DNA from: a virus
DNA length: 20,858 nucleotides
Reading direction: 5' to 3' (one strand)
Virus record (IMG/VR): IMGVR_UViG_3300028111_000023
Coordinates: 1-20,858 of that record
Numbering within the stretch: the stretch's first letter is position 1; every line of letters begins with the position of its first letter. The position numbers and the translations under genes are program-made. The notes below the pieces were generated by a model. That model was not told the DNA's origin. It made no database searches and saw nothing but the letters and a program-made list of their open reading frames with translations. Shown one piece after another: positions 2,773-20,858 of this stretch.

Positions 2773-4527
2773 TCAAGATTCCGTATTTCTTATTAGGTAA
2801 TAGCTCCCTCTCAAACCAACGTTAGCCAATGGTTCATAGAGCCTCAAGACATGAAATGGAATTTTATTGCTGGCTGTGCCAAATTGAATTTGCAAATTTA
2901 ACGCTTCTTTCAGGAGCCAGAAGTCACCCGTTGTTTGTGGGGGGTTCTCTATTCTTTGCGTGTAGTTGTTACCTCCAAAGTCCTCAAAGAAATCTTGATT
3001 GACATTACCCCCTCCTGTTAAATCCTGATAACCCCCACTACCATTTGAAAAATAGTATGAAGGAACAAAGACGTAAACGTAATCTCCTGTCTGCTGAGAA
3101 GTATTTACAAGCATACTGACACTCAACTGAGACGTATTAGCGTCAAGTAAGTCACCAGTAGAAGTTATGTTTTCAGGGTAGCACGAAACACCGTTGTTGG
3201 AAGTGTCTCCATCGTACATATCCTGAAAATTTGAGTCAGTACTTGAGGTGGTTAGAGCAGTAGAGCTTAGAACCAGTTTAACAGGAACCCTATTTACTGA
3301 GTAGGAGGCAGATTCAAAGTCACACTCAGTAGAACTCAAGCTAGAGTAAGGTCTTACACTATCCCAAATCTTTACCTTGTATGTATTAGAATCGCCAATA
3401 GCGACATCGCCATCATCTATAGCAATACTAAACGTGCTGGTTCTTCCGTTAGAGTCAAGACTTTCACCAGATATGTCTACTATACTTCCAACGAGAGCAT
3501 TGTTAGAATCTAAAACCGCGTAGCTATCCAGAGCTACGCCGCTCGTTTCAACCTCAACCTTAAACTTGAGATTACTTTCACCGTTGTATAGCTGACGATT
3601 GGAGTCGGTCTCGTCTGATGAAACCGTAGCTAATGCATTGGACTTTCTCTGAAGCTCAATACCGTTTGTGTTGTTGGTCTTTATTAATCTTGGTGAGATA
3701 TACACGGGGTCGTAGTCTACCTCCGAGCTAAACACCTCACCCTGACCGTTATCAGGTTCCTCTGCACTTACTTTCCAAGTGATGTGCTCATTAGTTGGGT
3801 TCTCTGTAGCGAAGGCAAAGCTGTAGGTCTCACTGTGGGTGTAACTCGCTGATGCTCCAGTAACACCAGTTTGAGTGTGAATCAAACTAAACGCACCACT
3901 ACCAATCTTTTTGTAAAACTTGAAAGTAATCGTAGAGCCCTGAGAGCTATTGGGGTTTGTTACAGAAGCTTGTATCTGCGCTGTAGCATTACTAATAGGC
4001 GTGTCGTTAAAGCCCACACTATTAGGTGTGACATTTATCGTAGGAGCTTGGATTTGCCCTAACTGAACAAGAGCCTCTCTAATTATGTCGATGGCAGTCT
4101 TATTACCATCACCTACTACTATCTGGTCAGTGTGAGAAAACTTTCCGAAGTTACCGCCGTCTGGTAAGAATACAGTAATTGCAGAGTCTAGGGTTTCAGT
4201 TGTTGCATCACTACCGTCGGCACCGTCGGCACCATCCGCGCCATCCGCGCCATCCGCGCCATCGGCACCGTCAGCTCCGTCCGCTCCGGGAGCACCATCG
4301 GCACCATCGGCACCCGCTGGTCCTTGTGGACCTTGCGGTCCTTGTGGACCTGTAGCACCAGCTGGACCAGCACCAATGGCACCAGCAATAGAGATGGAGT
4401 TGTCCGCTACCTGATTTAAAGTAACGACTTTAATGTCCGGGCCATCTTTAACAATAGACACCTTAATGATGTCACCGTGCTGGCTGGATACTTTTACATT
4501 TTTAGGCTGGTTTACACTTACAGGCAT
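2773..4527 (-). CDS. Collagen-like fibre protein with Ig-like region, 584 aa
   Basis: The N-terminal 50 residues (MPVSVNQPKNVKVSSQHGDI onward) form a small domain that probably attaches to the virion. Residues 54-107 are an uninterrupted run of 18 Gly-X-Y triplets, first GPA, GAT and GPQ types, then mostly GAD. Such a run is expected to form a collagen-type triple helix, acting as a trimeric shaft. Residues 108-580 are a beta-rich segment with alternating Ser/Thr/Asn and aromatic residues (for example TINVTPNSVGFNDTPISN and KVSAEEPDNGQGEVF). It looks like several immunoglobulin-like or receptor-binding domains, without proline hydroxylation sites being needed. The gene follows the 132-residue protein by nine bases and precedes the 178-residue protein by one. 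It is probably a tail or head fibre. The GAD triplets are encoded by 9-base repeats that could expand or shrink in frame. Confidence 0.85.
   Translation of the reverse strand: MPVSVNQPKNVKVSSQHGDIIKVSIVKDGPDIKVVTLNQVADNSISIAGAIGAGPAGATGPQGPQGPQGPAGADGADGAPGADGADGADGADGADGADGADGADGSDATTETLDSAITVFLPDGGNFGKFSHTDQIVVGDGNKTAIDIIREALVQLGQIQAPTINVTPNSVGFNDTPISNATAQIQASVTNPNSSQGSTITFKFYKKIGSGAFSLIHTQTGVTGASASYTHSETYSFAFATENPTNEHITWKVSAEEPDNGQGEVFSSEVDYDPVYISPRLIKTNNTNGIELQRKSNALATVSSDETDSNRQLYNGESNLKFKVEVETSGVALDSYAVLDSNNALVGSIVDISGESLDSNGRTSTFSIAIDDGDVAIGDSNTYKVKIWDSVRPYSSLSSTECDFESASYSVNRVPVKLVLSSTALTTSSTDSNFQDMYDGDTSNNGVSCYPENITSTGDLLDANTSQLSVSMLVNTSQQTGDYVYVFVPSYYFSNGSGGYQDLTGGGNVNQDFFEDFGGNNYTQRIENPPQTTGDFWLLKEALNLQIQFGTASNKIPFHVLRLYEPLANVGLRGSYYLIRNTES
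4207..4368 (-). repeat. Collagen-type Gly-X-Y repeat region
   Basis: These 162 bases encode the 18 Gly-X-Y triplets of the fibre. The plus-strand unit CCATCCGCG is repeated three times perfectly at 4232-4258, flanked by diverged copies (CCATCGGCA and similar). The 9-base unit encodes GAD in frame, so copy-number change would alter shaft length without a frameshift. Confidence 0.85.
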
Positions 4528-12008: not shown

Positions 12009-12443
12009 ATGAGTAGACACCATCCGTCACGCAGAAGGCGTGAATTTAGCAAATTGAATAAACGATATGTAAAGCGTAACGACCTCAAGAAACTATCGTT
12101 AGTACTAAGAGATGTAAAGCTTAACTTCGATATAGGGCTGGCCGAAGTCGAGGCACTTTTGTTCTGTTACGACTACGAGTTTTTCACCATCAACCATCTC
12201 TCGAAGGCCATGGGCAAAAGCAGGAAGAAGCTGTATGAAAGGACCGTGTTGCCCTTGAAGCAAAAAGGGTACATAGAAGTAATACATCATGGCAAGGAGA
12301 TTGATTCTTACATCAATGCCTTATTCCATGAGAAATCAGGTAACGAGCACAGACTCGGTTTGTCTCAATCGGGGCGGATGCTTGTGCAACGAATATACAG
12401 GAAGCTGGAGGGCGGAGAGCCTATTAATCTTCAGACCTCTTGA
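12009..12443 (+). CDS. Winged-helix DNA-binding protein, 144 aa
   Basis: Residues 1-28 are extremely basic (MSRHHPSRRRREFSKLNKRY). The centre (about 45-100) follows a MarR-like winged helix: helix ALLFCYDYEFFTINHLSKAM, recognition-type helix GKSRKKLYERTVLPLKQKGY, then the wing IEVIHHGKEI. The C-terminal part (LSQSGRMLVQRIYRKL) looks like a dimer helix. It probably binds DNA as a transcription regulator. It is alone on the plus strand among minus-strand genes, and its start lies 30 bases from the divergent structural-operon start, so control of that operon or of itself is plausible. Its last 20 bases overlap the end of the convergent muramidase gene. Confidence 0.75.
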   Translation: MSRHHPSRRRREFSKLNKRYVKRNDLKKLSLVLRDVKLNFDIGLAEVEALLFCYDYEFFTINHLSKAMGKSRKKLYERTVLPLKQKGYIEVIHHGKEIDSYINALFHEKSGNEHRLGLSQSGRMLVQRIYRKLEGGEPINLQTS

Positions 12444-12978: not shown

Positions 12979-12982
12979 GGGC

Positions 12983-12990
12983 ACAATATA
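12983..12990 (-). promoter_or_regulatory. Possible -7 box four bases before the muramidase ATG
   Basis: TATATTGT on the minus strand matches TAnnTTTG except at the last two positions. It ends four bases before ATG 12978, the same distance seen at 14116, 15006 and 15519, and this spacing is the main reason to report it. Confidence 0.4.
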
Positions 12991-13039
12991 CGGAATCTAA
13001 TAGCGTTAAGGATGTAGACAAACCCCCAAACACAATGTC

Positions 13040-13531
13040 ATGAAGAACATCATTTTCATCCTAGCCATCGCATTGGCAACCGTGAGCAACGCTCAATCCC
13101 TTAATAGTATCCTCGACGGTGTGTACGCACCAACAGAGAAGAACGCACTTAGCACACCCCTACTACTAAGTATGAAACCACAGAACGGAATACCGCACGA
13201 GGTTCTCGTAATCCGGGTCGTGGGCATGAATCCAGACTCAATCTTTGGAGACGTACTAGACCCGAACTTGGGTACCTCGCTGGAAACGTACACCGTATTC
13301 CACGGAGCAGACGTATTAGCCTTACCTCTTTTTGAGAAAGGTATCTACACCATCCTTTGCTTAGACGAGGATGGAAACAACGTAGGAGAGGGAGTACATA
13401 TCGTCGTGAACGAAAACTTCATTCAGGGAGTCATAGATACAGGATACGCAGAAAAAAGAAGCAGCCTAATCGTATCGACTAGACCGCTTCGTATTGGTCG
13501 GGATAGAACCGAGTTCGTTTCCTTCAACTGA
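13040..13531 (+). CDS. Secreted hypothetical protein with signal peptide, 163 aa
   Basis: The first 19 residues (MKNIIFILAIALATVSNA) form a textbook signal peptide: two basic or polar residues, a hydrophobic core and SNA before QS, a likely cleavage after Ala19. The mature part (about 144 residues) has one cysteine and reads as beta-rich, with EVLVIRVVGMNPDSIFGDVL and GIYTILCLDEDGNNVGEG. I do not recognise the family. It resembles an immunoglobulin-like or T9SS-associated host-type domain in general appearance only. It is on the plus strand between two minus-strand genes and ends one base from the convergent gene. A secreted moron-type product, a lysis or superinfection-exclusion function, or an uptake of host sequence are all possible. 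Confidence 0.72.
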   Translation: MKNIIFILAIALATVSNAQSLNSILDGVYAPTEKNALSTPLLLSMKPQNGIPHEVLVIRVVGMNPDSIFGDVLDPNLGTSLETYTVFHGADVLALPLFEKGIYTILCLDEDGNNVGEGVHIVVNENFIQGVIDTGYAEKRSSLIVSTRPLRIGRDRTEFVSFN

Positions 13532-15523: not shown

Positions 15524-15558
15524 CAAAAGTAGTAAAATGAATACTACATTAACTCAAA
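15524..15558 (-). promoter_or_regulatory. Bacteroidota-type promoter before holin-like gene
   Basis: TACTTTTG at 15524-15531 on the minus strand matches TAnnTTTG fully and ends four bases before ATG 15519. TTTG at 15555-15558 is 23 bases upstream, at the far end of the allowed spacing, and lies within the end of the metalloprotease gene. Confidence 0.55.
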
Positions 15559-16675
15559 ACCTTCTTTCTGACTTCCTCCTTACTTGCTCTTCTCTATAGA
15601 AGGGGTCGAGCTCCGAACCGAAACAAATCTGCCCCCAGTTAGCTAGTACAATTTGAAGGTCGCTAACTGTAAAGAAGCCATCTCCGTTTAGGTCTCCCTC
15701 AATCCAATTAAAGTCACCCCAATGGCTGAGCATAAGCATTAAGTCGTTAGTACCTACAACTAAATCGCCGCTGATGTCACCTGCGCAATACGGGTCTCCC
15801 GTCGTCATGCCCGGCCTAGTAATCTCAATCATGCTATGCATCCGCTCAATCTGACCTTCAGTAAAGTGTTGCCGGCATGAATCTACATAGTAGTCCATGT
15901 GATTGTCCGGTGTGTAGCTGTACAGGGCAGGGGGGCATATTGGGTTCTCGCAACTCCAGTTCAGTTTAGTTGGCGGGGTATCGCAAACAAAGTCTCCTGT
16001 CTCCTCGCAATCACCGAGGTTTTGTCCGCAGTTGTCTACGTTCCGAAAGACGTGATGCAAACTTAGGAAGTGACCGACCTCATGGATAAGTGTTTTGTTC
16101 TCATCTCTATTATCCAATAGGTGGTCTCCTAGCCTTCCGAATACACTTGTCTTGACCCACACTCCGTCTAGTGTTGTTTGAGGTGTGTACGCTGTCCATG
16201 CAAAACCTAGTATGCCTTGACAAAGAGCTGGGAATACATGTACGTTCATTACCGTTTCTCTGTCCCATACGATATCCTCTAAGTAGTCATTCATAGAGTT
16301 AAAAGCAAACCCATTGTAAGGAATGCAATTAGTGTTGAGCAACGCATAGGAATCTTCGTACTCATCAAAGTCATGATACTCTATGGCCAATAAATCAAAC
16401 TCATACATCGCCTCCTCGAACTCCTCATTCAGATGAGCAGCTGCATCGTTAACGATATAGAGCGGTAGATTGCTGTGAGAGATGCTGTCAGTGTAGTAAA
16501 TGTGAACGACGTAGTTGACCGTCTTCCATTCTGGTTCATCTGGGAAGAACCCCATTGTTCTTACAGCTAAATCCTCTGGCTCACCGAATGTGACACACTG
16601 AGAGTTGGCCTTGCTTACAAGCAGGAGGGTTAGCATCCATAGGACAAAGATTGCATGGAACTTATAGCGTGACAT
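15554..16675 (-). CDS. Secreted M43-type metalloprotease with dockerin-like repeats, 373 aa
   Basis: The start at ATG 16675 gives a clear signal peptide (FHAIFVLWMLTLLLVSKANS). The catalytic core has HEVGHFLSLHH at 198-208, the HExxHxxxxxH zinc site of metzincins with Glu199, and NHMDYY near 258-263 as the Met-turn. CDTPPT and paired cysteines are typical of the pappalysin/cytophagalysin (M43) family. Residues 299-348 hold two Asp-rich repeats, GDISGDLVVGTNDLMLML and GDLNGDGFFTVSDLQIVL, matching type I dockerin calcium-binding loops. The last 25 residues are charged and carry no T9SS sorting domain that I can recognise. The enzyme should act outside the cytoplasm, on surface or medium proteins. 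It may help release virions or remodel the host surface. A GTG-initiated frame from 16711 is longer but would precede the signal peptide. Confidence 0.85.
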   Translation of the reverse strand: MSRYKFHAIFVLWMLTLLLVSKANSQCVTFGEPEDLAVRTMGFFPDEPEWKTVNYVVHIYYTDSISHSNLPLYIVNDAAAHLNEEFEEAMYEFDLLAIEYHDFDEYEDSYALLNTNCIPYNGFAFNSMNDYLEDIVWDRETVMNVHVFPALCQGILGFAWTAYTPQTTLDGVWVKTSVFGRLGDHLLDNRDENKTLIHEVGHFLSLHHVFRNVDNCGQNLGDCEETGDFVCDTPPTKLNWSCENPICPPALYSYTPDNHMDYYVDSCRQHFTEGQIERMHSMIEITRPGMTTGDPYCAGDISGDLVVGTNDLMLMLSHWGDFNWIEGDLNGDGFFTVSDLQIVLANWGQICFGSELDPFYREEQVRRKSERRF

Positions 16676-16738
16676 GTGGTTGGATTTAGGGTAAAGCATT
16701 CCCCCGCACACTATTAGTATTCAACAAGAACGATAGCC

Positions 16739-17222: not shown

Positions 17223-17284
17223 TTAACATCTGTTGGCAATTAGCTCATACTAGAACAAGATTGATATCCGTTATACACTCAACA
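17223..17284 (+). promoter_or_regulatory. Diverged copy of the right-arm promoter element
   Basis: TTAACATCTGTTGGCA at 17223-17238 matches 13 of 16 bases of the perfect right-arm repeat. CGTTA begins exactly 46 bases after its start (17269), the spacing seen at 18669-18715. The block after CGTTA (TACACTCAACAA) is poorly conserved and the middle box is weak (TCATACTAG). It precedes the 105-residue gene. Confidence 0.45.
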
Positions 17285-17329
17285 ACGCGATAGCTAAATA
17301 GATAACATAAACCACATAACACACTGATT

Positions 17330-17647
17330 ATGAACGAGATAACCAACAAAAACAACGGATTGCAAGCGACTATCGAAATGGTTGAGATGCACTTGAAGAG
17401 TGCCAGAGTCCTTGCTGAGACTGCATTCGGGATGGCTAAGTTCAGCCTTGAATCCATCGAAAGTGAGTTGCGAACCGCTGAAGCCTTGTGCTTGTGCGAC
17501 CAGACTAAGCGCAATATCCAAGAGCGTGAGGCAGTAGCCCTAGACGAGCTAGTAGCCGCAAGGAGCACGATGAACGATATCAGGAGAACGCACATCAATC
17601 TCAAGTCCAGTATCGGCATGGGAGATTTCTCAGCACTTGCACAATAA
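17330..17647 (+). CDS. Coiled-coil hypothetical protein, 105 aa
   Basis: First gene of the plus-strand right arm. It starts MNEITNKNNGLQATIEMVEM and is nearly all helix, with heptad-like spacing in KFSLESIESELRTAEALCLC and REAVALDELVAARSTMNDIR, so a coiled-coil oligomer is likely. No family is recognised. The last codons GCA CAA TAA form part of the GCACAATAA box of the next promoter element, so gene end and promoter are interlocked. Early phage genes often encode small host-interacting proteins, and this could be one. That is inferred from position only. Confidence 0.65.
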   Translation: MNEITNKNNGLQATIEMVEMHLKSARVLAETAFGMAKFSLESIESELRTAEALCLCDQTKRNIQEREAVALDELVAARSTMNDIRRTHINLKSSIGMGDFSALAQ

Positions 17648-17678
17648 GCAGAAACCGAGATACGTTAACACTATAGAA
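17639..17678 (+). promoter_or_regulatory. SP6/T7-like promoter element before ardC-like gene
   Basis: GCACAATAA (17639-17647) is followed 24 bases later, start to start, by CGTTAACACTATAGAA (17663-17678). The last eleven bases, ACACTATAGAA, are identical to the core of the SP6 RNA polymerase promoter as I know it. The TTAACAT part found upstream of other copies is missing. The first G of GAA would be the transcription start, 42 bases before the ATG. Confidence 0.65.
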
Positions 17679-17681
17679 ACA

Positions 17682-17703
17682 GGGGAGGCAATCCAGTCTC
17701 CCC
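17682..17703 (+). promoter_or_regulatory. Hairpin in the leader of the ardC-like gene
   Basis: GGGGAG (17682-17687) pairs with CTCCCC (17698-17703) around ten bases, just after the predicted start of transcription. It could stabilise the 5' end or affect translation. The same strand AGGGGAGGC (17681-17689) is also the exact complement of GCCTCCCCT (18645-18653) at the gene end. Confidence 0.5.
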
Positions 17704-17717
17704 ACAAATTGAAAGCC

Positions 17718-18644
17718 ATGAGCAAAGCGAAGAAAGACGTCTACCAGCAGGTCACCGACCGCATCATCGAAGGTCTCCAGACCAAGGGTCTCCAGTGGTT
17801 CAAGCCTTGGAACGCAGGTGACGGCATGGGTGCTTTGATGCCCATCAATAACACCACGGGGAAAGCCTATCGTGGTCTCAACCAGCTGTTCCTCTGCATC
17901 GAGCAGACGGCCAATGGCTACGAGCACAACGAATGGTTGACCTACAAGCAGGCGGCTAAGGCTGGCGGCAATGTGGTTAAGGGTTCTACAGGAACTGAGA
18001 TTGTGTTCTGGAACATCAGCTACAAGGGTGAGGACGGCAAGTTCTACCGCAAGATTCAGGACATCCCTGTAGGCATGGCGTTCGACAAGCTTTTCAGCCC
18101 ACGCCTCTGGAACGTGTTCAACATCGCCCAGTGCGAAGGCATCGAGCCACGCCGCAAGCCCATGACTCCGGTCGAGCCAGCGGAGCAGTTCAATCCAATC
18201 GGTGAGGCTGAGAAGGTGTACGCAGAGCTGTACCCCACCAAGCACAAGCCCACGTTGGGTCACGGCGGAGCCAGCGCGTTCTACGCTCCAATGCGCCACC
18301 ACGTCCAGATGCCCAAGCCTGAGACCTTCGTCACCAACGATGACTACTACAAGACTCTGTTTCATGAGTTGGTGCACAGCACTGGTCACGAGGATATCTT
18401 GAATCGCCTGAACAAGGTGGCTGCCTTCGGGTCTGAGGACTACAGCAAAGAGGAGCTGGTGGCTGAGATTGGTGCGCAGTTCCTCGTGGGTCTCACAGGC
18501 ATCAAGCCAAAGGATGACCACGTGAACAGCCAAGCCTACGTCAACAACTGGGTCAAGCAGTTGAAGGACAAGCCGAAGATGGCTCTGTCTGCCGCGAACA
18601 AGGCAATGAAGGCTGTGGACTTCATCATGGGGGGAGAGGCGTGA
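17718..18644 (+). CDS. ardC: ArdC-like antirestriction metalloprotein, 308 aa
   Basis: The N-terminal part (about 5-130) matches the ArdC/DUF1738 single-strand-DNA-binding domain: YQQVTDRIIEGLQTKGLQWF, then PINNTTGKAYRGLNQLFL and GSTGTEIVFW. The C-terminal part is the zincin-like metallopeptidase domain, with HELVHSTGH at 216-224 (zinc ligands His216, His220; Glu217) and EELVAEIGA from 246 providing Glu250. ArdC proteins protect incoming DNA from restriction enzymes, known best from plasmid transfer. Here it would protect phage DNA, expressed early or injected. ATG 17718 is preferred because a longer TTG frame from 17637 crosses the promoter. The gene is GC-rich: one hand-counted row (18121-18180) has 40 G or C of 60, against 26 of 60 at 19501-19560. 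This suggests recent acquisition. Confidence 0.88.
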   Translation: MSKAKKDVYQQVTDRIIEGLQTKGLQWFKPWNAGDGMGALMPINNTTGKAYRGLNQLFLCIEQTANGYEHNEWLTYKQAAKAGGNVVKGSTGTEIVFWNISYKGEDGKFYRKIQDIPVGMAFDKLFSPRLWNVFNIAQCEGIEPRRKPMTPVEPAEQFNPIGEAEKVYAELYPTKHKPTLGHGGASAFYAPMRHHVQMPKPETFVTNDDYYKTLFHELVHSTGHEDILNRLNKVAAFGSEDYSKEELVAEIGAQFLVGLTGIKPKDDHVNSQAYVNNWVKQLKDKPKMALSAANKAMKAVDFIMGGEA

Positions 18645-18668
18645 GCCTCCCCTCCGCCCTTCGGGGCG
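18632..18668 (+). terminator. Double hairpin at the end of the ardC-like gene
   Basis: GAGGC (18636-18640) pairs with GCCTC (18645-18649) around GTGA, a GNRA-type tetraloop containing most of the stop codon, and flanking G and C runs extend the stem. Immediately after, CGCCC (18655-18659) pairs with GGGCG (18664-18668) around a UUCG tetraloop. No long T-run follows, so it may terminate weakly or protect the 3' end. Confidence 0.6.
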
Positions 18669-18730
18669 TTAACATTAATTCACAAGTAGCGCACAATAAA
18701 ACGAATACATCCAGCGTTACTACTATAGAA
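18669..18730 (+). promoter_or_regulatory. Full right-arm promoter element, copy before 111-aa gene
   Basis: TTAACATTAATTCACA (18669-18684), GCACAATAA (18691-18699) and CGTTACTACTATAGAA (18715-18730) lie in the same order and spacing as in the copy at 19380. CTATAGAA resembles the SP6/T7 core. A transcript starting at the G of GAA would have a leader of about 14 bases before ATG 18742. Confidence 0.68.
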
Positions 18731-18741
18731 ACGAGAGAAAC

Positions 18742-19077
18742 ATGAAAAAATACGACTCAACACCGATTGCCTACGCAAGCTACCCAGAGACTGGAGTAGT
18801 CCGAACCGACCGCAAGTTCCGCGCCACCATCCAGTTCTACACTGGTAGTGCATGGGGGAAGGGCACATGGGCATGCTCCAAGACGTTCAACAACGAGAGC
18901 CACGTGGACAACTTCATTGCATACATGGAGAGGACTAAGGGCTGGAACGTCGATGAGGTTTGGTATGGAAAGAACCTGACTCCGCTTGAGGACTCTTGGG
19001 CGTATCAAGGTGAGGCTGTAAAGACCAAGTTTCACAAGCCTAATGGATGGAAGGCTAGACGCGCCGCCGGACACTAA
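18742..19077 (+). CDS. Hypothetical protein, 111 aa
   Basis: I do not recognise this protein. It begins MKKYDSTPIAYASYPETGVV and is rich in aromatic residues and lysine. Segments such as FRATIQFYTGSAWGKGTWAC and VDNFIAYMERTKGWNVDEVW suggest a small alpha/beta fold. The C-terminus is basic (FHKPNGWKARRAAGH). It directly follows a full promoter element and precedes the 97-residue gene by 12 bases, so the two are probably co-transcribed. As a small unknown protein in a block next to an antirestriction gene it may act on host defences or metabolism, which is inferred only from context. Confidence 0.65.
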   Translation: MKKYDSTPIAYASYPETGVVRTDRKFRATIQFYTGSAWGKGTWACSKTFNNESHVDNFIAYMERTKGWNVDEVWYGKNLTPLEDSWAYQGEAVKTKFHKPNGWKARRAAGH

Positions 19078-19089
19078 ACAGAAAATAGT

Positions 19090-19383
19090 ATGGGACAGAA
19101 AATGATTAAGATAGACACCATGACTTGCGGCAAGCACTTCCTTCCTGCAATCTTCAACGGAGACTTCGAGGGTCTCAACGCAAACGAGGAGTTCCTCCTT
19201 GAGCGTGAGGTGGGTTGGTATAACGCGACGGCTGAGGAGGACTACCCAGACTTTGTTAGCATCGAGTTCGAGTGCACGTCAAGTGAGCGATACATCTGTG
19301 GATGTGACCTGACAGGACTATTCGGCGAATGCGTGGAGGTAAAGGTCTTCGTGACCTTAGACGAGAACTACGTGAAGGATTAA
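19090..19383 (+). CDS. Hypothetical protein, 97 aa
   Basis: The protein begins MGQKMIKIDTMTCGKHFLPA and contains FNGDFEGLNANEEFLLEREV, a pattern that resembles small phage proteins of unknown function (possibly the group called DUF6926; this is from memory). Several cysteines occur (CGCD near the C-terminus, CGK near the N-terminus), so metal binding is possible. It is acidic. The TAA stop is formed by the start of the next right-arm repeat (TTAACATCCG), so the gene end and regulatory element overlap. It is probably co-transcribed with the 111-residue gene. Confidence 0.65.
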   Translation: MGQKMIKIDTMTCGKHFLPAIFNGDFEGLNANEEFLLEREVGWYNATAEEDYPDFVSIEFECTSSERYICGCDLTGLFGECVEVKVFVTLDENYVKD

Positions 19384-19440
19384 CATCCGTTAACATACTG
19401 CGCACAATAACAGCAAACTTGCCGCGTTATTACTACAGAA
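19380..19440 (+). promoter_or_regulatory. Full right-arm promoter element, copy before 401-aa gene
   Basis: TTAACATCCGTTAACA (19380-19395), GCACAATAA (19402-19410) and CGTTATTACTACAGAA (19425-19440). The first block is a direct TTAAC repeat with a ten-base period. The last block differs from the SP6-like core by one base (ACTACAG). The ATG lies 23 bases after the element. Confidence 0.65.
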
Positions 19441-19463
19441 GACATCATTAAAAACAATTCAAT

Positions 19464-20669
19464 ATGAGAGTTACCAAGAAAAACGACATTGCCTTCACGC
19501 CTGATTCCAAGTCAGCCATCATCGCACTTGTAAGACTACGCAAAGATTCGTTTGCAAACATCTACAAGATTGAGCGAGCAATCCGAGACGAGTACATCAA
19601 GCTTACAGCTAACAGCTTCGGCCTCATCCCAGCAGATTACTATCAGCTCCAAAAACCGGAGAACGCCAAGGCTATGGCAAAGGCTAGGTTGTCTGTAATT
19701 AGTGGGGATGATGTGGCTATATGCAAGCGGTTCGTTGAAGTCGTACCAAACAAGTCTGACTACACGATATCGCTATGTGAGGAAGGTGAGGCTGTATTGG
19801 AGGAGGCGAACGGCAATGGGTCAAGCCATTCATCATACAGCAGTCGTGTTAGTGAGTACGACATAAACCGAGTTTTAGAATTTGTCTTAGGCAAAAAGAG
19901 CATTGACAACCAAGAGCTACTAGACCACAACGAAGACGTTAAAAGGTCTATCAAGAGAGGCAAATATCTCAAGGCAGTACGCAAGGGTAATCCGCTACGC
20001 GCTGGACTTGAAGATGGGCGGGTGTGCTACGAGTTCACCGATGCTGTGTTCGATGACCACATTGACATGTTTACTCGTGTACTCTTCATTGGTCACCAAC
20101 TACGTGTCGTAAAAGATACTGACTCCCCTGTGTATGTCGTAGAAAAACTGACTACCAATTCAGTCAATCCATGGAGGATAGTGGCGTTCGAGGACAAGCT
20201 GTACGACGTTATCGTGGGGCTGTCTTATAAGCTACACGACCGAGAACTGCGGGCAGTAGAGTCAGCGATTCGACAATGCGAGCGAGGTATGCCATTGATT
20301 CAAGACCTGTTCACACAGGACGAGATTCGACAGCTGGCCGATGCCCAGTGCGTGGAACTGCCAGAGCAGACTACGTTCTCTGTAGTGAAAGTTGGCTCAG
20401 AGTCTTTCGGGTGCGTTGAGTGCTCTAAGGTCAAGCCAGAGGCGAACGTGATTGCATCTGGACTCAAGTATGAGGATGCTGATAAGTTGCGAGGGCTATC
20501 AGACAGAGATGCTACAGCAAAGCGACGAGTGGAGAACAAAGTCAATCGCATCAACAACATGAGAGAACAGCTCGTTCAAGAAAGGGCTGAGTTGGTTAAG
20601 CTGGAGGAGGAGCAAGAGCAGGCTGAAAGCAACTTGACTAATCACCAGAACCAAATACATGCGGCATGA
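19464..20669 (+). CDS. Hypothetical protein with C-terminal coiled coil, 401 aa
   Basis: I do not recognise this protein. It begins MRVTKKNDIAFTPDSKSAII. The first 110 residues are mixed alpha/beta. Residues 115-130 are a Ser/Gly-rich linker (NGNGSSHSSYSSRVS). The middle (LEFVLGKKSIDNQELLDHNE, then FIGHQLRVVKDTDSPVYVVE) appears globular, with VECSKVKPEAN near 320. The last 60 residues (NNMREQLVQERAELVKLEEE and onward) form a long coiled coil. No nuclease, polymerase or helicase motif is seen. It follows a full promoter element and its stop overlaps the next gene start (ATGA). It may be a host-takeover or DNA-associated protein, but no function is proposed with confidence. Confidence 0.68.
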   Translation: MRVTKKNDIAFTPDSKSAIIALVRLRKDSFANIYKIERAIRDEYIKLTANSFGLIPADYYQLQKPENAKAMAKARLSVISGDDVAICKRFVEVVPNKSDYTISLCEEGEAVLEEANGNGSSHSSYSSRVSEYDINRVLEFVLGKKSIDNQELLDHNEDVKRSIKRGKYLKAVRKGNPLRAGLEDGRVCYEFTDAVFDDHIDMFTRVLFIGHQLRVVKDTDSPVYVVEKLTTNSVNPWRIVAFEDKLYDVIVGLSYKLHDRELRAVESAIRQCERGMPLIQDLFTQDEIRQLADAQCVELPEQTTFSVVKVGSESFGCVECSKVKPEANVIASGLKYEDADKLRGLSDRDATAKRRVENKVNRINNMREQLVQERAELVKLEEEQEQAESNLTNHQNQIHAA

Positions 20670-20833
20670 TGTTCGATAACGCACACAACCCATTCATCGA
20701 GCTTAACCTATCGAAGGAAGAGCTGGTGGAAGCATACAACTTCTTCCAAGGAGTTGACCTAGAATCCCAGATGCTAGTAGCTGATGCACTTGATGCTAAG
20801 TACAGCTTGATGGAGTTAATTAACATCCGTTAA
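20666..20833 (+). CDS. Small acidic hypothetical protein, 55 aa
   Basis: This short frame starts at ATG 20666, overlapping the TGA of the 401-residue gene by four bases (ATGA), and ends at a TAA at 20831-20833. It begins MMFDNAHNPFIELNLSKEEL and is acidic and helical (VEAYNFFQGVDLESQMLVAD). The coupling and sensible composition support it as a real gene. Its stop codon lies inside the perfect repeat at 20820-20835. Its family is unknown. Confidence 0.68.
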   Translation: MMFDNAHNPFIELNLSKEELVEAYNFFQGVDLESQMLVADALDAKYSLMELINIR

Positions 20834-20858
20834 CAAACGACGGACAATATCTCAGAAC
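20820..20858 (+). promoter_or_regulatory. Start of a fifth promoter element, cut by window end
   Basis: TTAACATCCGTTAACA (20820-20835) is identical to the copy at 19380-19395. GGACAATAT starts 22 bases after it (20842), the same spacing as GCACAATAA in the other copies. The window ends before the SP6-like core is expected, at about 20865. Confidence 0.6.

Follow-up and report, generated by a model that had tools for sequence, protein, structure and literature searches.

A repeated two-box element in a predicted Bacteroidota phage and its candidate role as a promoter class for a host alternative sigma factor

Positions 1 to 20,858 of the virus record IMGVR_UViG_3300028111_000023 (the window) contain a repeated element built of two boxes on the rightward strand, GCACAATAA and CGTT(A/C)NNACTATAGAA, which are separated by 14 or 15 bases. 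We propose that its copies are probably promoters at which bacterial RNA polymerase is guided not by sigma-A but by another sigma factor, most likely a host factor of the extracytoplasmic function (ECF) type that is borrowed for the right arm of the phage genome. The sequence itself shows the boxes, their spacing, their strand, their association with genes and their recurrence in one bacterial chromosome as well as in further phages, and we take the repeat to be a real and conserved family of predicted promoters. This proposal is favored because the boxes are bipartite with a single base of freedom between them, the pair forms a class of its own in a chromosome, genes for ECF sigma factors lie behind the pattern, and the pair is present in other phages. 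It is favored also because one copy is kept in front of different genes, ordinary sigma-A boxes are biased by strand, and neither a single-subunit phage polymerase nor a recognizable phage sigma factor was found.

A phage contig of 56,985 bases (G001) includes the whole window at 100% identity. Its first 20 bases are found again 159 bases from its end, within an overlap that is inexact in places; because of this end overlap, G001 is probably a complete and circularly permuted genome. Leftward structural genes occupy one arm, and the rightward right arm contains small genes and those for ArdC, an exonuclease and a primase-helicase. The terminase and portal proteins have their matches among phage families, with the terminase sharing 41–46% protein identity with Flavobacterium elemo phages and an uncultured podovirus. 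These terminase relatives, together with a primase-helicase that is BT4734-like, suggest that the host belongs to the Bacteroidota.

The repeated element in the window and in other phages

Two copies in the window have three parts, all on the plus strand. The copy at 18669-18730 has an upstream block at 18669-18684, a predicted -35 box GCACAATAA at 18691-18699 and, 15 bases later, CGTTACTACTATAGAA at 18715-18730. The copy at 19380-19440 has the dyad TTAACATCCGTTAA at 19380-19393, the same -35 box at 19402-19410 and, 14 bases later, CGTTATTACTACAGAA at 19425-19440. The plus-strand copy before the ArdC gene (17639-17678) has no first block, and its -35 box GCACAATAA at 17639-17647 is followed after 15 bases by the predicted -10 and start region CGTTAACACTATAGAA at 17663-17678, with transcription predicted to start near A17675. 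A further plus-strand copy (20820-20858) is cut by the window end, with a dyad at 20820-20833 and a -35 box GGACAATAT at 20842-20850; its core, CGTTCTAACTATAGAA, comes next in G001. At 17223-17238 (plus strand) the upstream block TTAACAT-N3-TT-N2-CA stands alone, without a good box or core. An earlier reading made from the letters of the window (the sequence-only reading) had described four complete or nearly complete copies and one cut copy. The cut copy is indeed present, but only those at 18669-18730 and 19380-19440 have all three parts and 17223 is a first block only; the constant spacings of 22 and 23–24 bases are correct in the window copies, as is the identity of 13 of the 16 core positions at 17663, 18715 and 19425. 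One copy that it did not list, consisting of GCACAATAT, 14 bases and CGTTAAGGATGTAGAC (12981-13019, plus strand), lies in the short gap between a minus-strand gene and the plus-strand gene 13040-13531.

What is beyond chance in the window is the exact combination of blocks at fixed spacing. The first block is exact at 17223, 18669, 19380 and 20820, and with up to two mismatches gives 11 matches, a number reached by 19 of 100 shuffles and therefore not significant alone. Similarly, GCACAATAA is exact at 17639, 18691 and 19402, and its eight matches with up to one mismatch are reached by 21 of 100 shuffles. The core CGTTANYACTAYAGAA is exact at 17663, 18715 and 19425 and has five matches with up to three mismatches (reached by three of 100 shuffles), the remaining ones all having three. 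The combination CACAAT-N16/17-CGTT is found four times on the plus strand and never on the minus strand, with approximately 0.08 expected by an estimate that assumes equal base frequencies.

Searching for further copies, as the sequence-only reading had advised, recovered them in G001 and in related contigs. G001 has six right-arm copies for about 25 open reading frames (ORFs) in addition to the left-arm copy at window position 12981, so that the earlier statement of an element in front of every right-arm unit was too strong. A weight matrix trained on other contigs, including G006 (~86–92% identical to the window over the longer aligned pieces), scores the six right-arm copies at 18.5 to 44.2, the best of six one-strand shuffles scoring 13.7 and 3.9. 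The 12981 copy scores 10.8, below the 13.7 shuffle, and is accepted not by its score but because it is conserved in G006 and G003. Outside the window, the element at 36785-36824 of G001 overlaps the 3' end of the preceding ORF, and CGTTCTAA of its core contains the stop codon of that ORF.

The strict core is present in 14 of 16 records, on a single strand in each, and the reversed control gives none in any of them. Across eight related contigs, CACAAT-N(6-30)-CGTT occurs 70 times on the plus strand, with gaps of 16 (25 matches) and 17 (34 matches) accounting for 59 of the 70; the minus strand has eight matches in total, of which three at gap 17 are unlike the elements. We collected 61 units with a pattern that fixes several positions, and full conservation at these (CGTT, for example) is by construction. 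The start region varies among TATAGAA, TGTAGAC, TATATAA and TGTATAA, with core positions 5–7 varying most (0.27–0.69 bits), and the distance from core to first ATG has a median of 19 bases and ranges from 5 to 42. The 12981 copy precedes a cargo slot occupied by ORFs of 163 amino acids (aa) in G001 (13040-13531), 154 aa in G006 and 71 aa in G003. Box and core are kept in G006 and G003 before these different genes, the G006 ORF having no whole-length similarity to that of G001. Another contig, G005, has a gene 96% identical to the G001 cargo gene, preceded by the same box, spacing and CGTT and by another start region.

The upstream block is a dyad, TTAAC-N4-GTTAA, and is an optional part of the element. 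Allowing one mismatch, 24 dyads occur on the plus strand of the eight related contigs and 19 of these lie exactly 22 bases before the box and its following CGTT, all except one of the 19 with 14-base spacing. Viewed from the units, TTAACA is at the exact place in 19 of 61 and within one base of it in 23. An A/T-tract UP element was also considered, and runs of at least five are present in two of 23 dyad units and six of 38 other units, which is too weak to claim.

A scan with a shorter pattern, which also returned relatives and chance-looking stretches, identified five further contigs (L267, L274, L280, L281 and L282) in which genes begin shortly after the pattern. Since it was the pattern that brought in these contigs, a copy is independent only when it is an additional one in the same contig: L274 has four such units before ORFs (in a series of five) and L267 has two, while the two units each in L281 and L282 were all found by pattern and L280 has one. 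L274 is 36–39% identical in exonuclease and helicase. The start regions in these contigs are TATATAAA, TATATAA, TATATAC and similar, and since the start region differs in such distantly related contigs, ACTATAGAA is apparently a clade-specific flavor and the box pair the shared part.

Sigma factors that could read the element

The primary sigma factor of Bacteroidota reads TAnnTTTG at -7 (PMC6847099, PMC7366714; these and the papers cited below are drawn on in excerpt). The element does not have this -7 sequence, and the ordinary boxes are distributed by strand and arm. The leftward strand of G001 has 29 TAnnTTTG (shuffled mean 18.2), seven of them 2–20 bases before a start codon, and the rightward strand has seven (shuffled mean 17.5). 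Within the left arm the leftward strand has 25, compared to 6–17 in ten shuffles. All eight contigs agree in direction, with more TAnnTTTG than the mean of shuffles on the structural strand and fewer on the element strand, the leftward excess being within reach of shuffles in three contigs (3, 9 and 7 of 50). Boxes of the sigma-A type typical of Bacteroidota are present before left-arm genes of G001, and none is found on the plus strand of the right arm, which appears to lack an ordinary promoter just where the element occurs.

The box pair is also present in a bacterial chromosome. A first scan for the full element, with one genome per species, returned 18 stretches, approximately the chance level by estimate, nine of them with Bacteroidota names and seven of these nine with a spacing of 15 or 16; the weight lies not on this number but on the setting of some of the stretches and on the subsequent test of G020. 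Four independent Bacteroidota stretches lie 10–16 bases before ORFs of 122–214 aa, one further stretch is a homologue of one of these, and two (L118 and L121) have no such ORF. Two of the four are in G020, a Bacteroidales metagenome-assembled genome (MAG), RGIG5467, from sheep colon. With up to three mismatches, the full element occurs ten times in G020 (control 0) and eight times in the Chitinophagales MAG G022 (control 1); five of the latter are similar copies of CACAATACTTGCGTCATTATTACGTTGAAGGTATCTAA-like DNA (contigs C6, C135, C152 and C155) and probably form a repeat family of their own.

CACAAT-N(6-30)-CGTTA has 52 matches in G020 (reversed control 10), 43 of them at gap 16, three at gap 17 and six elsewhere, and the tighter CACAATAW-N14-CGTTA has 38 (control 0). 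The loci were fetched for holding the pattern, and it is the spacing peak and the association with gene starts that are informative. An ORF of at least 80 aa starts 8–75 bases downstream at 23 of the 29 sites with enough flank, compared to 14 of 61 for CGTTA without a box in these loci and eight of 40 for pattern sites in other genomes. By our own reading of their sequences, the proteins behind the sites resemble TopA, SerS, FabD, PurE, MsrA and YajC. The G020 loci are also enriched in TAnnTTTG, with 70 occurrences where shuffles average 36.7 and reach at most 47, and because this enrichment is retained the box pair would be a second promoter class in G020.

Two genomes (L214 and L215) have the pattern 16–18 bases before a gene for a sigma factor of 199–200 aa, each exceeding the curated threshold for the sigma70-ECF superfamily. 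Autoregulation of the cognate sigma gene is a feature of ECF sigma factors. The association is suggestive only, since the two proteins are related (67% identical) and a third homologue (L141) has no such box upstream. A CGT at the predicted -10 position is present as CGTT in 61 of 61 units, where the search required it, and as CGTTA at one spacing in the G020 class. In Flavobacterium psychrophilum, which has sigma-A, one sigma-54 and seven ECF sigma factors, a CGT box occupies the -10 position of the motif SM6, which the authors of that study regard as a strong hint at an ECF sigma, and SM6 genes include an ECF sigma/anti-sigma pair (PMC9723704). The element shares with SM6 this CGT box and the lack of sigma-A and sigma-54 character; it differs in its phage user and in a -35 box GCACAATAA without AAC, with the -35 box of SM6 itself lying outside the comparison. 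By elimination within the sigma set of the phylum, an ECF sigma factor is the likeliest host reader.

In the mechanism that we propose, where promoter function, sigma class, start site, timing and regulator are all predicted from sequence, host polymerase with an ECF-type sigma would bind GCACAATAA as the -35 and CGTTA as the -10 element, 14 or 15 bases apart. TATA would be melted and transcription would start near AGAA, around the final A or the G of TATAG, so that ArdC and other small genes would be preceded by short leaders. The right arm, with its anti-restriction, recombination and replication genes, would be run by the borrowed host sigma and the structural left arm by ordinary sigma-A promoters, and a dimeric regulator bound to the TTAAC-N4-GTTAA dyad would probably tune some of the copies.

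Several observations weigh against recognition by a host ECF-type sigma. The chromosomal class has a single MAG behind it. Among the 394 further Bacteroidota genomes sampled, CACAATAW-N14-CGTTA occurs 48 times in 43 genomes, with a maximum of four and a control of ~62 (hand counts), G028 being a weak second to G020 with four matches and a control of 0. The CTATATAA pattern with up to two mismatches gives 20 matches in 395 genomes against 32 in the control (hand counts), and a pattern with CTATA gives 32 matches in 395 genomes with no spacing peak. A phylum-wide host promoter class, which we had considered, is not supported, as only G020 stood out among the 395 genomes. The sharing of the class between the phages and this sheep-colon MAG has no apparent link to the host of the phages, and the start region is far more conserved in the phages than at the chromosomal sites. 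The third ECF homologue without a box belongs here too. ECF -35 elements usually carry an AAC motif (PMC4153023), which GCACAATAA lacks, AAC being present only at the 3' edge in some phage copies. The sigma-A comparisons include soft tests: TAnnTTTG is absent from the plus strand of the G001 right arm, where ten shuffles give 0–6 and two of them also none, and in loci taken from other Bacteroidota genomes the count is no higher than in shuffles (146, compared with 145.7). Finally, the spacers form more stable folds than their shuffled versions (mean -2.84 compared with -1.78, with none of 200 shuffles as good), and a plain promoter needs no such folding.

Other explanations for the element

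The sequence-only reading had proposed promoters of the SP6/T7 type for a single-subunit phage RNA polymerase, or alternatively a sigma or activator system modified by the phage. Its view that these are right-arm promoters, possibly of a sigma type, is supported; the SP6/T7 part is not supported and is close to refuted. The copies do precede genes on one strand, and from general knowledge ACACTATAGAA resembles the SP6 start region. SP6 and T7 promoters are contiguous, with bases from about -12 to -5 tightly fixed, and the position of GCACAATAA is outside any T7-type promoter footprint. The likeness is confined to the TATAGAA start region of some copies, ACACTATAGAA being one variant that is replaced elsewhere by TATATAA, TGTATAA or TGTAGAC, and the weakly conserved core positions 5–7 noted above would correspond to -9 to -7 counted from the G. 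Moreover, the distant box GCACAATAA accompanies the core throughout, is placed within one base relative to it, and recurs with CGTTA in the bacterial chromosome. The search for a polymerase gene in the rest of the genome, which that reading had suggested, found none: PF00940 (single-subunit RNA polymerase) has no match in G000 or in 16 other records, nor in 12 records searched alongside T7, where the T7 control matches at 1e-109, although very divergent enzymes could escape. We thus conclude against the SP6/T7 type because of the missing polymerase domain, the variable start region, and a distant box that is kept in place and occurs in a chromosome.

A giant protein of ~3,250–3,330 aa (47190-56954 in G001) closes the structural arm in nine contigs inspected and has a HExxH-like site, HEAFH in G001. 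It has no convincing match in Pfam, PHROGs or the PDB, the sole match of a three-sequence profile to the PDB at E values up to 1 being unrelated-looking (E 0.36), and eight aligned giant proteins contain no invariant D.D.D, HD or K-YG polymerase motif. A polymerase hidden in this protein was rejected on these grounds. N4-type hairpin promoters have a fixed small hairpin upstream of the start; the element by comparison has a hairpin excess on average and no predicted structure in ten of 61 units. The profile and motif checks of the giant protein, which did not include a direct comparison with the N4 virion RNA polymerase (vRNAP), found no vRNAP-like protein.

Among the other explanations, redirection of host RNA polymerase by a phage protein, either an unrecognized sigma factor or an activator on GCACAATAA or the dyad, is unlikely and yet deserves consideration. 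Most scanned right-arm proteins have no known function, and the 22-base placement of 19 of 24 dyads would fit the proposal of the sequence-only reading that a second protein may act on the upstream block. A MarR-like winged-helix protein (12009-12443, plus strand) is conserved in nine related contigs; by sequence it matches nothing in Pfam, NCBIfam and the PDB, and its AlphaFold model (mean pLDDT 71.8) has MarR-type regulators as best Foldseek matches (best E value 9e-4). It is a plausible candidate for binding the dyad. Its gene is an isolated rightward gene within the leftward structural arm, with a leftward TATATTTG box just upstream. Against a phage protein as reader are the occurrence of the box pair as a chromosomal class in G020, the lack of TTAACA in most copies, and the lack of any Sigma70_r2 or Sigma70_r4 match in 11 records at E values up to 1 with positive controls. 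Somewhat less probable still is that the host reads the element not with an ECF factor but with a lineage-specific second-group sigma or with a primary sigma that has been altered. Such a reader would suit the -35 box without AAC and the housekeeping-type genes (by our own reading) behind the G020 sites, which are unusual for ECF regulons, but sigma-A specificity seems unchanged given the TAnnTTTG enrichment in G020, and two ECF genes lie behind the pattern.

An element acting at the RNA level or associated with starts, through an mRNA hairpin, translation or processing as might be imagined for the SAS repeats discussed below, is very unlikely. It would account for the short median distance from core to ATG and the folding of spacer and boxes, and in one sub-class AATAAC can pair with GTTATT. 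However, the ATG distance varies from 5 to 42 bases, boxes rather than pairs are conserved, and the gene that follows the 12981 copy stands by itself and must have a promoter, its short divergent gap holding the element. A universal RNA hairpin as main function was rejected for the ten units lacking predicted structure, leaving the hairpin excess unexplained. We can give hardly any credence to promoters of the Escherichia coli sigma-70 type, with TTAACA, 17 bases and CACAAT. Each of the four upstream blocks of the window does score as a promoter of this type, but the scan total of 18 is below the 25.7 expected from shuffles, most copies lack TTAACA, CGTT accompanies the box, and the primary sigma of the phylum does not use such promoters (PMC6847099); this reading was rejected, the upstream block being optional.

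Comparable repeats, neighboring genes and implications

Cluster K mycobacteriophages have start-associated (SAS) and extended start-associated (ESAS) repeats, in which an asymmetric motif, mostly in one orientation, is tied to different gene families and about half of the SAS genes have an extra upstream inverted repeat (PMC3203893). The likeness to the present element is in a one-orientation repeated motif before diverse genes with an optional upstream repeat. It differs from the SAS consensus GGGATAGGAGCCC (PMC3203893) in sequence and in host, and in being a spaced box pair 5–42 bases from the ATG. The related phage MW202828 (Caudoviricetes sp. ctfjg026; L045, reverse complement of 34357-41352) also has a repeated motif near ATGs, but this is a perfect 16-base palindrome, GTGTCGTTAACGACAC, in place of the box pair. 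Its 12 copies are in the arm opposite the structural genes, with the first ATG 8–41 bases downstream in ten of them, and no box pair followed by a TATA-like start was found when this locus was searched. An earlier report of such a phage promoter system was not found in the open-access literature, subscription papers and preprints lying outside the search.

The genes behind the elements in the window, all on the plus strand, encode an ArdC-type anti-restriction protein recognized by matches to the ArdcN and zincin domains (17718-18644), a 111-aa ORF of no known function (18742-19077) and a 401-aa protein also of no known function (19464-20669). Elsewhere in the window, 15554-16711 encodes an M43-family metallopeptidase, possibly a secreted enzyme in a phage, and a nine-base periodic array at 4196-4339 within a leftward ORF codes for a collagen-like Gly-X-Y stretch.

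Tentatively, this phage clade and at least some other Bacteroidota phages may have their early and replication genes controlled by a host sigma of the ECF type, perhaps one set free as infection perturbs the cell envelope, which would then act as the infection switch, with the same class serving housekeeping genes in at least one Bacteroidales lineage. If so, one arm of the genome would depend on the host primary sigma and the other on a host alternative sigma, with no phage polymerase or recognizable phage sigma. The box pair would then give a promoter consensus that can be read in uncultured Bacteroidota phages and in at least one genome of the Bacteroidales, a candidate target for unassigned Bacteroidota ECF sigma factors, and a handle on which hosts these phages infect.

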